Part shown: one piece after another, positions 15,695 through 50,371 of the stretch
Layout of the letters: each line of letters opens with the position of its first letter
Position numbering within the stretch: position 1 is the first letter of the stretch
Assembly (NCBI RefSeq): GCF_004564275.1
Contig: NZ_SPDV01000025.1
Location: forward strand, 1-58,828
Length of the DNA: 58,828 nt
Reading direction: 5' to 3'
DNA from: Sphingomonas parva (ex Maeng et al. 2020)
Lineage (GTDB): Bacteria; Pseudomonadota; Alphaproteobacteria; Sphingomonadales; Sphingomonadaceae
Program-made: the position numbers and the translations under genes
Notes under the pieces: generated by a model
Database searches by the model: none
Seen by the model: only the letters and a program-made list of their open reading frames with translations
Told to the model about the DNA's origin: nothing

Positions 15695-15842
15695 TCCTCC
15701 CTGTCCGCGAAGCGGACGGGGAGGGGGACCGCGCGGAGCGCGGTGGAGGGGCACGCTTGTGCCCTGCACCGACCTGCCCCTCCACCGCTCGGCTTCGCCG
15801 AGCGGTCCCCCTCCCCATGAAGCTTCGCCTCACGGGGAGGAT
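15695..15842. repeat. CCTCCCC palindromic repeat, full copy
   Basis: Begins TCCTCCCTGTCCGCGAAGCG right after the selO stop and ends CACGGGGAGG. It consists of two half-elements facing each other, each with a GGAGGGGGACCG / CGGTGGAGGGG block and its own small hairpins, so the whole is an imperfect palindrome of about 148 bp. Related copies lie at 22481, 25697 and 47102. Confidence 0.8.
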
Positions 15843-22480: not shown

Positions 22481-22632
22481 TCCTCCCCGCTTGCGGGGAG
22501 GGGGACCATGCGCAGCATGGTGGAGGGGGTTCCGAGACCCGCACTGCGCCGCCTTTGCTCTTCCGCGGGGCCCCAGCCCCCCTCCACCACGCGGTTGCGC
22601 CGCGCGGTCCCCCTCCCCGCGAACGGGGAGGA
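22481..22632. repeat. CCTCCCC palindromic repeat, full copy
   Basis: Runs from TCCTCCCCGCTTGCGGGGAG to CGAACGGGGAGGATCC between the lipoprotein gene and dcd. Both facing half-elements are complete. The apparent reading frames through it (from 22508) are repeat-derived. Confidence 0.8.
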
Positions 22633-24026: not shown

Positions 24027-26627
24027 CTAGCGCCCCTGGTGCCGGATGTTCCCCGGCCGGCCGCGCTTGCCCTGCATTCTCACCTTCTTGCCGTCGCCGC
24101 CGCCGCTCTTGCCCTCCCGGTCACCGCGCTTGCCGTCGCGGCGGATCGGCCGCCGCGCGCTGCCCGGGCCGCCGCGCTGGAAGCCGCGCGCCCCGCCGTC
24201 GGGGAGCTCGAAGCGCAGGCCCCCCGACACGGGGTTGGCCTCGACCAGCCTGAGCTTCAGCCTCTGGCCCGAGGCGAACTCGGTCTCGCTGTCCTCGCCG
24301 ACCAGGGTCTGGCGGGCCTCGTCGTAGCGGAAATATTCGCTGCCCAGAGTGGAGACCGGCACCAGCCCGTCGCCGCCGAGCCCCTCGACCGTGGCGAAGA
24401 AGCCGAACGGCTGCACGCCGGTGATCCGGCAGTCGACCAGGTCGCCGACCCGTTCGGAGAGGTACGCGGCGACATAGCGGTCGAGCGTCTCGCGCTCCGC
24501 CTCCATCGCCCGCCGCTCCAGTTGCGAGATCAACTCGCCGGTGACCTCCATCGCCTCGAGGTCCTGGTCGGTGAGGCCGGTCTCGCGCGCCTCCGGTCCG
24601 AGATCGTAGGCGCGGACCAAAGAGCGGTGGACGATGAGGTCGGCATAGCGCCGGATCGGGCTGGTGAAATGGGCGTAGGAGCCGAGCGCCAGGCCGAAAT
24701 GGCCGTGGTTCTCCGGCCCGTAATAGGCCTGGGTCTGGGTGCGCAGGATCTGCTCCATCACCTGCGGCTTGAAATCGGCCTCGCCGACCCGTTCGATGAT
24801 GTGGTTGAAGGTCGACGGGCGGATCACCTGGCCCAGGGCGAACTCGATCTCGAAGGTCTTCAGATAGTCCTTCAGCGCGACCAGCTTCTCGCGGCTCGGC
24901 GGTTCGTGGTCGCGGTACATCACCGGCGCTTTCTTCGCCTCCAGCGCCTTGGCCGCCGCGACGTTGGCCGCGATCATGTAATCCTCGATCAGTTTGTGGG
25001 CGTCGAGCCGCTCGCGCGGCGCCACCGACAGGATCCGGCCCTTCTCGTCGAGCACCACCCGCCGCTCGGGCAGGTCGAGGTCGAGCGGCCCCCTTTTCTC
25101 GCGCGCCACGTACATCGCCCGCCAGCATTCCCACAAAGGCTTCAGCGTCGATTCGACCAGCGCCGGATCGACCGGGGGCGGCGCCGCAGCCGATGTAAGC
25201 TCGATCTCCGGCATCGAGCAGGGCGAGGAGGCGACCTCGACCCTCTCCCCGGCCTCGGCGCCCCCCCTGCCCTCGGCCGCATCGATCGCCGCCTGCGCGT
25301 CCTCATAGGCGATGTTGGCGGCGATCCGCACCCGGGCGCGGGAGAAGCGCCAGCGCTTCAATTCGCCGCTCTTCGCGACCTGGAGGTGGCAGACCAGCGA
25401 CGCGCGGTCCTCGCCCTGCTTCAGCGAGCAGACGTGGGCGGAGAGCGTCTCGGGCAGCATCGGCACCACCCGGTCGGGGAAATAGACCGAATTGCCGCGC
25501 TTGCGCGCCTCCTTGTCGAGCGCCGAGCCGGGGCGGACGTAGAAACTGACGTCGGCGATCGCGACGATCGCCTTCCAGCCGCCGGCATTGGCCGGATCGT
25601 CGTCCGGCGCCGCCCACACCGCGTCGTCATGGTCCCGCGCGTCGGCCGGGTCGATCGCCACGATCGGGATGGACGTGAGGTCTTCCCGAGCGACCATTCC
25701 TCCCCGGTACGGGGAGGGGGACCGGCCGGTGCCGGAGGCGCCGGACGGTGGAGGGGCTGGCACCGCCTCATCATTCTGCGCTGCAGGCAAGGGCTCGAAC
25801 TCACTGCCAGCCCCTCCCCCACTCGCCTGCGGCGAGCGGTCCCCCTCCCCGTGCCGGGGAGGAATTGAAGAGCCGCTCGGGTCAAGCGGCAGCCCCGCCA
25901 CCCGTTCCGCTTCCTCGAGCACGCGGTCCGGGAATTCGTGCGGGATGCCATGCTTGTGGATCGCGATCAGGCTGAAGCTGCGCGGCGCGAACGGGTCACC
26001 GAGCACCTCCGACACCCGGGCGCTGATCCGCGGCGGCCTTCCCACTTTCTCGGCCAGCACCAGGTCGCCCGGCTCGGCTCTGCCGAGGTCGGAGATCGGC
26101 AGCTCGCGCCGCTCCTTCTTCTCGACCGGGCGCAGCCACAGGCTCTCCCCTTCCTGGTGGACGACGCCGAGCACCAGTTCCTCGCCGCGCGCCAGTTTCT
26201 TCATCGGGTGGGCGGCGTAGCCATTCCCCCGCGCCTCGGTGCGGGCGAGGATCCGGTCGCCGGGGCCGAGCGCCCCGCCCCTGCCCCCCTTGCCGGTCCG
26301 CTCGAGCACGCGGATCCGCGGCTCGGGCATGTCGCTCTCCCAGCGCTCGGGGACGGCCCAGATTTGGCCCTGGTCGTCGACGTCCTTGACCCGGAGCACG
26401 GTGACCTTCGGCACGCCGCCGGCCTGGTGGAAGGCGCGGCCCGGCGAGCCCTCGATCAGCCCCTCGTCGGCCATGTCGCGCAGCAGCACCTTCAGCGCCT
26501 GCTTGTCGTTGCCGGAGAGGCCGAAGGCGCGGGCGAGCTCGCGCTTGCCCGCCGGCTGGTCGCTCGACGCGATGAAATCGAGGATCTGCTGGCGGCTCGG
26601 GAGACCGCCTCTGTCTTTTCTAGCCAT
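24027..26627 (-). CDS. rnr: Ribonuclease R with an in-frame repeat-encoded insert
   Basis: 866-residue 3'-5' exoribonuclease. Order: N-terminal winged-helix region (residues 1-65), cold-shock-like domains (about 70-250), RNB catalytic domain from AIDPADARDHDDAVW (metal-binding aspartates, residues 324-338) through SPIRRYADLIVHR, an S1 domain, and a Lys/Arg/Gly-rich tail for structured RNA. Residues about 252-312 match no family part: they are encoded by a complete CCTCCCC palindromic repeat (25697-25865) inserted without breaking the frame. A second non-conserved Pro/Ala stretch lies near residues 450-490. The catalytic residues are intact, so activity is likely kept. Confidence 0.93.
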   Translation of the reverse strand: MARKDRGGLPSRQQILDFIASSDQPAGKRELARAFGLSGNDKQALKVLLRDMADEGLIEGSPGRAFHQAGGVPKVTVLRVKDVDDQGQIWAVPERWESDMPEPRIRVLERTGKGGRGGALGPGDRILARTEARGNGYAAHPMKKLARGEELVLGVVHQEGESLWLRPVEKKERRELPISDLGRAEPGDLVLAEKVGRPPRISARVSEVLGDPFAPRSFSLIAIHKHGIPHEFPDRVLEEAERVAGLPLDPSGSSIPPRHGEGDRSPQASGGGAGSEFEPLPAAQNDEAVPAPPPSGASGTGRSPSPYRGGMVAREDLTSIPIVAIDPADARDHDDAVWAAPDDDPANAGGWKAIVAIADVSFYVRPGSALDKEARKRGNSVYFPDRVVPMLPETLSAHVCSLKQGEDRASLVCHLQVAKSGELKRWRFSRARVRIAANIAYEDAQAAIDAAEGRGGAEAGERVEVASSPCSMPEIELTSAAAPPPVDPALVESTLKPLWECWRAMYVAREKRGPLDLDLPERRVVLDEKGRILSVAPRERLDAHKLIEDYMIAANVAAAKALEAKKAPVMYRDHEPPSREKLVALKDYLKTFEIEFALGQVIRPSTFNHIIERVGEADFKPQVMEQILRTQTQAYYGPENHGHFGLALGSYAHFTSPIRRYADLIVHRSLVRAYDLGPEARETGLTDQDLEAMEVTGELISQLERRAMEAERETLDRYVAAYLSERVGDLVDCRITGVQPFGFFATVEGLGGDGLVPVSTLGSEYFRYDEARQTLVGEDSETEFASGQRLKLRLVEANPVSGGLRFELPDGGARGFQRGGPGSARRPIRRDGKRGDREGKSGGGDGKKVRMQGKRGRPGNIRHQGR
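25697..25865. repeat. CCTCCCC palindromic repeat inside rnr
   Basis: Runs from TTCCTCCCCGGTACGGGGAG to GTGCCGGGGAGGAATT, with the same facing halves as the intergenic copies at 15695, 22481 and 47102. It spans about 56 codons in frame, encoding low-complexity Gly/Ser/Pro-rich peptide (for example SSIPPRHGEGDRSPQASGGG). Confidence 0.85.
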
Positions 26628-42647: not shown

Positions 42648-42710
42648 GCCGCCGTCTCTCCTCATGTTCTTTCTTCCGCCGTCCCTGTGCCGCCCGACCC
42701 TCCTCTTTCC

Positions 42711-42794
42711 GTCATCCCCGCGAATGCGGGGATCCAGGAGGCTTTTGGATCGGTCACCGAGGCCGCCCTGGATTCCCGCCTTGGCGGGAATGAC
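42711..42794. repeat. GTCATCCC palindromic repeat, copy 1
   Basis: From GTCATCCCCGCGAATGCGGG to CTTGGCGGGAATGAC: both arms are small hairpins and the whole is an imperfect palindrome of 84 bp. It lies between the divergent FAH and mmsA genes. Related to copies at 48334, 49222 and 50285. Confidence 0.75.
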
Positions 42795-42903
42795 GGCTGA
42801 AGTGACGTGCAGGTCCGACCAATGTTGTGCCTCGGCAACTGGCATTTCGCCGCCGTCAGGTCTAGGGGCTCGGACAACAACAGAACACGCAGCAGAGGAT
42901 GCC

Positions 42904-47101: not shown

Positions 47102-47231
47102 TCCTCCCCCAGCTTGCTGGGGGAGGGGGACCAGCCGAAGGCTGGTGGAGGGGTATGCTTGTGCCACGCGCCGACCTACCCCTCCACCGCGCTCCGCGCG
47201 GTCCCCCTCCCCGAGCCGAGCTCGGGGAGGA
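47102..47231. repeat. CCTCCCC palindromic repeat, full copy
   Basis: From TCCTCCCCCAGCTTGCTGGG to GAGCTCGGGGAGGA between the acyl-CoA dehydrogenase and HIBCH genes. Two facing halves with the GGTGGAGGGG block, as in the other full copies. Confidence 0.8.
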
Positions 47232-48333: not shown

Positions 48334-48420
48334 CGTCATCCCGGCGAAAGCCGGGATCTCGTCGGGTGAAGAACGCGGCGCTTATATCACCACGAGATCC
48401 CGGCCTTCGCCGGGATGACG
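48334..48420. repeat. GTCATCCC palindromic repeat, copy 2
   Basis: From CGTCATCCCGGCGAAAGCCG to TTCGCCGGGATGACG, 87 bp between HIBCH and enoyl-CoA hydratase. Arms are hairpins. Confidence 0.8.
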
Positions 48421-49221: not shown

Positions 49222-49308
49222 CGTCACCCCGGCGCAGGCCGGGGTCTCGTCGGGTGAAAAGCGAAGGCGCCTTTCCGAGCCGAGATCCCGGCTTTCGCCG
49301 GGATGACG
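49222..49308. repeat. GTCATCCC palindromic repeat, copy 3
   Basis: From CGTCACCCCGGCGCAGGCCG to TTCGCCGGGATGACG, 87 bp between the hydratase and mmsB genes. Confidence 0.8.
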
Positions 49309-50284: not shown

Positions 50285-50371
50285 CGTCATCCCGGCGAAG
50301 GCCGGGATCTCAGGTCGGAAGGGCCCCGGCGCCTTTCACCCTATTAGACCCCGGCTTTCGCCGGGGTGACG
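50285..50371. repeat. GTCATCCC palindromic repeat, copy 4
   Basis: From CGTCATCCCGGCGAAGGCCG to TTCGCCGGGGTGACG, 87 bp between the convergent mmsB and wecB genes, where it could also end transcription. Confidence 0.8.

Follow-up and report, generated by a model that had tools for sequence, protein, structure and literature searches.

An in-frame palindromic repeat in the RNase R gene of Sphingomonas parva is probably a gene-less copy of a mobile element with a putative DUF559 nuclease form

In Sphingomonas parva, the RNase R gene (rnr) is interrupted in frame by a palindromic repeat. Judging from sequence comparisons, this insert is probably (we put the probability at roughly 0.7) a non-autonomous copy of F1, a palindrome-bounded mobile element with a putative autonomous form that encodes a DUF559 nuclease, and the copies that survive in frame would mark sites where insertions are tolerated. 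The putative autonomous form would consist of an inverted pair of double hairpins around a single gene for a DUF559 (Vsr-like PD-(D/E)XK) nuclease, and the short copies, including the one in rnr, would be derivatives that lack this gene. In-frame palindromes within proteins are already known from Rickettsia and from some REP families, often with no clear idea of what moves them. In this bacterium, which is not known to be a pathogen, the question becomes testable through a concrete candidate enzyme that is linked to the repeat by position and phylogeny. Moreover, unrelated repeats found at the same linkers and loops could serve as natural replicates of mobile DNA becoming protein sequence, with a broken rnr in one genome (G001) beside the intact cases.

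The window, that is, the whole stretch of 58,828 nt that was analyzed, is contig 25 (58.8 kb) of a 4.49-Mb draft genome (G000), and its features are listed in Table 1. A preliminary description had reported a CCTCCCC palindrome in frame within rnr, directly ahead of the RNB domain, with further copies at three other places in the window; all of this is borne out. The rnr frame is open over its entire length, with no stop codon and no frameshift, and Pfam matches to CSD2, RNB (over profile positions 1-323 of 326) and S1 put the palindrome between CSD2 and RNB. The inverted arms of this copy, at 25696-25735 and 25826-25865, are 85% complementary, and the RNA of the palindrome folds with -131.1 kcal/mol as compared to -93 for shuffled sequences (z = -8.2). 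The size of about 56 codons given earlier is correct for the palindrome itself but not for the insertion, which amounts to approximately 62 residues (around 249-312) relative to the empty site of a related genome, G014. In an AlphaFold model of the window RNase R, built with a 60-sequence alignment, insert residues 253-310 have pLDDT values below 50, as does the RNB loop at residues 459-479 (site 2 below), and the RNB core is mostly confident; the closest solved chain is Ribonuclease R 5xgu. The insert is thus modelled as a disordered loop ahead of RNB, with the catalytic domain retained, and a tolerated flexible loop, as had been suggested, is probable given the low model confidence for these residues. 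A scan of the window against Rfam at gathering score gave no matches. A second palindrome family, of the CGTCATCCCGGCGAAAGCCGGGATC type and CGTC-tagged like published REPs, is present in the window at 42710-42795, 48334-48420, 49222-49308 and 50285-50371.

Table 1. Location of rnr and of the F1 copies in the window
Feature	Position	Strand	Remarks
rnr, RNase R	24027..26627	-	866 aa, CSD2 + RNB + S1; host of the insert
F1 double-hairpin palindrome, in frame in rnr	25699..25862	.	164 nt between outer ends
Left half-element of the rnr F1 copy (GGGGAGGGGGACC ... GGAGGGG)	25711..25756	+	
Right half-element of the rnr F1 copy, inverted	25811..25850	-	
F1 element outside rnr, full pair	15696..15840	.	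intergenic in the preliminary description
F1 element outside rnr, full pair	22482..22631	.	intergenic in the preliminary description
F1 element outside rnr, full pair	47103..47230	.	intergenic in the preliminary description; an antisense open frame of coding-like composition runs across it

F1 is made up of two inverted halves, each with an outer hairpin, CCTCCCC ... GGGGAGG, and next to it an inner one arranged as GGGGAGGGGGACC-stem-loop-GGTGGAGGGG. Counts of F1 rest on a pattern for the half-element (a version with a stricter loop undercounted copies), which matched 95 times in the G000 genome and not once as a reversed control. F1 halves were found in 25 of 26 genus genomes, at 1 to 218 per genome, with one reversed-control match over all 26. 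Among 75 distinct 34-nt halves, all four inner-hairpin pairs were present in 64, three in 10 and two in 1, with G-T pairs allowed, and the 25 different inner arms in this set point to co-varying stems. The consensus ends are AATCCTCC and GGAGGATT, based on 103 distinct end pairs with both outer ends (from 129 pairs); no target-site duplication was found at these 103 end pairs, where direct matches of 2-6 nt occurred at about the level expected by chance. The lengths of 86 short F1 pairs fall into all three modulo-3 classes (25 with remainder 0, 32 with remainder 1 and 29 with remainder 2), and 26 of 27 full pairs from the G000 genome are open in at least three of the six frames. Because the lengths cover all remainders and stop codons are few, a fair share of insertions within genes could stay open; selection would then presumably purge most of them, sparing those in tolerant linkers and loops. 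On one contig of G000 (C103), 10 of the 11 F1 halves form a tandem array with a period of 169 bp (L219, 149-1734).

Evidence for a gene-bearing form comes from F1 pairs whose halves lie 344-458 nt apart. All 16 of these long pairs enclose a DUF559 (PF04480) gene, as identified by an independent Pfam search, so that in F1 the nuclease gene does lie between inverted palindromes that belong to a single family; the rnr copy is a gene-less member. DUF559 is present in 25 of the 26 genus genomes, and when its genes were collected regardless of palindromes, 45 of 48 scorable genes had flanking inverted GA/CT-rich palindromes. In the first set, flanking inverted repeats scored at least 39 in 29 of 30 loci with 330-nt windows and in 26 of 30 with 270-nt windows, three loci at contig ends scoring 65-104 once the windows were correctly placed. 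A further 20 lower-scoring DUF559 genes from eight genomes were picked by score and place, not by palindrome, and 16 of the 18 scorable ones passed. By comparison, none of 516 controls passed, of which 100 were rnr genes and 416 were other coding-like frames (top score 38); these controls consisted of rnr and its neighbours in 260-nt windows. Among solved structures, the F1-type DUF559 protein matches 3hrl, which is endonuclease-like (4.5e-15).

Three palindrome types flank DUF559 genes, namely F1, F5 (CCCTCTCCC) and F6 (CCCCTCCC). When 70 nucleases were placed in a tree (127 columns), all 35 F1-flanked sequences fall on one side of a branch with an SH-aLRT of 100, and palindrome labels change 4 times along the tree compared to at least 23 times in 200 shuffles. 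Many forks of this tree lack resolution, half-flanked genes were assigned to the respective family, and a single untyped gene was excluded; 20 of the 35 F1 rows were chosen for an adjoining F1, and the remaining 15, which were retrieved through DUF559 alone, show the same behavior. From these associations we infer that the DUF559 nuclease is the best candidate for the enzyme that moves F1, which would probably spread through the action of the nuclease on hairpins or targets, leaving no target-site duplication.

The DUF559 gene could instead be a passenger that was caught between pre-existing palindromes and has no part in their movement, an explanation that we regard as rather unlikely. In its favor, the majority of F1 copies are without a DUF559 gene and the number of F1 copies does not correlate cleanly with the presence of an F1-type nuclease. 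Genome G012 has one DUF559 gene, not of the F1 type, and no F1 halves, and in G013 DUF559 was not found and there is one F1 half; G025, however, has 23 F1 halves with two DUF559 genes, one F5-typed and one untyped, and G023, which is 81% complete, has one F1 half in spite of a DUF559 gene of the F1 type. F1 copy number and nuclease type therefore agree only in part. A passenger would, however, fit less well with three palindrome types that each bound DUF559, with a nuclease tree that tracks palindrome type, with control genes that have no such boundaries, and with similarly bounded DUF559 genes elsewhere in the class. Across the class, DUF559 was found in 51 of 142 genomes, and 19 of 27 scorable loci passed the flank test, which is less regular than within the genus. 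We are slightly inclined to a broader reading, in which DUF559 nucleases would be the mobility enzymes of undescribed, class-wide elements bounded by GA/CT-rich double hairpins, with one palindrome per nuclease clade, and gene-less copies of these elements would repeatedly settle in frame in RNase R, LigD, TruB, GlyS and UvrA, at their linkers and loops. Among the matches listed from the open-licence literature, no paper links DUF559 or Vsr with palindromic repeats and none reports in-frame palindromes in Sphingomonas; by their titles and the opening parts of their abstracts, none of the open-licence papers found to mention DUF559 treats palindromic repeats.

Another enzyme could also move F1, because the G000 genome has five Y1_Tnp (RAYT-like) matches. 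F1 might be a REP or REPIN mobilized by RAYT, a Y1 tyrosine transposase, and unrelated to DUF559; its hairpin architecture is REP-like and it is without target-site duplication, both of which would fit. Neither an exact F1 core nor CCTCCCC was found, however, within flanks of up to approximately 1.5 kb around the five Y1_Tnp genes of G000, the F1 consensus ends are AATCCTCC rather than GTAG or CGTC, and a DUF559 gene lies inside all 16 long F1 copies, making mobilization by RAYT unlikely. The RAYT-like Y1 genes are paired on G000:C102 and again on C47, with the two copies about 1.2 kb from each other (L176-L179), and there is one more.

Insertions into rnr have occurred repeatedly. We compared 110 rnr coding regions, 30 in a first set and 80 named loci (the best 80 of 582), which included 7 duplicates; 17 of the 103 distinct genes, L084 among them, carry at least one copy of F1, F2 or F3. 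At the CSD2-RNB joint (site 1), four kinds of hairpins were found in different species: F1 in the window gene (L001), L002, L004, L025 and the distant Sphingomonas sp. Leaf33 (L107), with a single F1 outer hairpin, in frame, in Sphingomonas hankookensis (L084); F2 (TTCGACAAGCTCAG) in L021 and in L003, a gene that also appears as L067 (A. vermicomposti); F3 in L024; and a short hairpin in L011. Some length differences at site 1 contain no known family (e.g., L071 and L072), and the partial genes L019 and L026 were left out of site 1 scoring. Two further insertion sites were identified. Site 2, the RNB loop, holds F1 in L020, L021, L023, L088, L107 and L109, F3 in L003, L014, L100 and L105, and F2 in L115. 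At site 3, G018 has an in-frame F1 copy, and in G001 the copy is out of frame and shifts the reading frame of rnr (L024), which is thereby split. L115, L100 and L105 come from more distant sphingomonads. In L019 (G022, a 68%-complete genome), the rnr match consists of two open frames near site 1 and is possibly broken or mis-assembled, and the rnr match of Sphingomonas sp. ERG5 (L081, 3001-6470) spans about 3.5 kb, which exceeds the gene and could reflect a duplication or insertion.

In a quick tree with 39 rows, of which 27 stand for genomes and 12 for named loci (rows and labels hand-picked; 755 of 1304 columns), at least 9 state changes are needed at site 1, if the hairpin of G013 is taken as a state of its own, and at least 11 at site 2. 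Site 1 is empty in G014 (L005) and filled in its sister G015 and in the window genome, whose DNA identities to G014 are 89.5% and 84.2%, respectively. Since G014 is closer to G015, either a loss or two gains are required. The filled copies at site 1 have spacer letters in common, and since the ligD copy of G000 has similar letters, one gain followed by a loss and two gains are both possible. The suggestion that these repeats move is therefore supported by filled and empty sites among relatives. The alignment of relatives' RNase R that had been proposed as a check found the insert absent in G014 and in most relatives compared; an ancient conserved segment of RNase R can thus be ruled out.

F1 has also entered other protein genes. 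Among 233 distinct units (119 + 114), 27 lie in open frames of Pfam-matched genes, representing 12 gene kinds; to qualify, a unit had to sit in an open frame that itself matches Pfam and is coding-like in composition to either side of the repeat, and 27 of 233 is not a rate, as out-of-frame insertions were not searched for systematically. In-frame copies were found in ligD (5), glyS (4), truB (4), uvrA (4, in 3 genomes) and oxoprolinase genes (3), and once each in rnr, uvrD, mfd, coaBC, thiC, a terminase gene and a gene with a weak pyruvate-dehydrogenase-like match; for thiC and the dehydrogenase-like frame, the Pfam match is on one side of F1 only. F1 lies between two matched Pfam domains in ligD, uvrA, coaBC and terminase, and interrupts or edges a single match in glyS, truB, mfd and oxoprolinase. 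The ideas that F1 is always between domains and that it is confined to nucleic-acid genes were both rejected, the former by these Pfam ranges and the latter by the oxoprolinase, coaBC and thiC copies. A further seven candidate units (L199, L211, L216, L295, L299, L331 and L338) had no Pfam match and were not counted, and five alternative frames at loci of counted or candidate units (L284, L338, L376 and two in the window) fell outside the scan. The survey left out G002, G003, G010, G012, G017, G021-G024 and the G000 copy on C89, covered G015 in part and G006, G011, G013 and G019 by one or two loci, and the 233 units exclude rnr copies outside G000, which are known from the rnr loci.

Alignment of five of these genes put the insertion at a place common to different species, with the exception of glyS, which has two places. 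The ligD linker was read in 23 genus genomes regardless of motif: F1 is clear in 11 (G000, G014, G011, G021, G006, G003, G007, G024, G005, G009 and G015), some with one half, and decayed in G017, and the other seven linkers outside these and the following group have neither repeat or remnants only. The CGTC-tagged CGTCATCCCGGCGAAAGCCGGGATC type seen in the window occupies this linker in G008, G010 and G019, with a partial CGTC-type repeat in G020. The sister genomes G007 and G019 share the same linker flank and have different repeat families inside, and at least 7 state changes over 21 rows are needed on a quick tree. The same places have been struck repeatedly by F1 and by unrelated palindrome families.

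Alternatively, the inserted peptide could have been kept for an added RNase R function, for example as an Arg/Gly-rich linker that binds nucleic acids. Seven of the 12 gene kinds (20 of the 27 units) have products that work on nucleic acids or tRNA, and F1 frames can give GEGDRSP or RSPSPxRGG. The GTAG and CGTC repeats are reported to show the same lean (PMC3733652). Such a function is nevertheless improbable: reading frames at site 1 vary by species (PPRHGEGDRSP vs LPGTGRGTSRR, with unrelated families read as RPEPVEG and SRAKSRG), most compared species have no site 1 insert at all, and the insert is modelled as disordered. Because species differ in palindrome family and reading frame, no particular peptide is maintained at the rnr joint, and the earlier proposal that such repeats may be a source of protein novelty is weak.

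Since unrelated palindromes recur in rnr, structure rather than peptide could be the common factor. RNase R digests structured RNA, and the enzyme might autoregulate its own message through the inserted palindrome; the strong fold of the inserted RNA and the repeated hits of rnr by unrelated palindromes would agree with this. However, ligD, truB, glyS, uvrA and metabolic genes are struck likewise and the majority of compared rnr genes are without an insert, which leaves autoregulation with little to recommend it. An assembly or sequencing artefact is hardly credible; some F1 copies are near contig ends of the draft genome, but the rnr copy is internal to its contig and in-frame copies occupy shared places in other genomes, some of them single-contig (G007 and G009).

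With F1 read as a mobile element with a putative DUF559 form, it can be compared with several known systems. Rickettsia belongs to another order of the same class. Its palindromic elements (RPEs) were the analogy drawn in the preliminary description, and this stands as far as the in-frame palindrome is concerned: RPEs are described as palindromic repeats in frame within protein genes (PMC3733652), and F1 behaves likewise in rnr and 11 other gene kinds. Membership in an RPE family is not supported; compared by description, F1 differs in being GC-rich and built as a pair of double hairpins, in occurring in sphingomonads and in having long relatives with a nuclease gene. REPs, as described in PMC3733652, are short dispersed palindromes, often in inverted pairs and mostly intergenic, some of which are intragenic in uvrA, truB, DNA ligase and tRNA synthetase genes. 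F1 is also a dispersed palindrome with a co-varying stem and often forms inverted pairs, but it has no GTAG or CGTC tag at its ends (103 end pairs), no RAYT was found adjoining it in G000 (flanks up to about 1.5 kb) and its long copies enclose DUF559. The Caulobacter VsrA protein (PMC12907096) has the DUF559 domain in common with the candidate F1 enzyme; in that paper, VsrA is handled as a putative mismatch-repair nuclease, and the "palindrom-" term does not occur in the main text. F1 resembles MITEs in having terminal inverted repeats. MITEs are short copies bounded by inverted repeats that have longer, gene-bearing relatives. F1 differs from them in that a target-site duplication was not found and in its candidate enzyme, a Vsr-like nuclease rather than a classical transposase. 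The likeness may nonetheless extend to the longer gene-bearing relative, as the DUF559 gene in 16 of 16 long F1 copies would be the candidate mobility gene.
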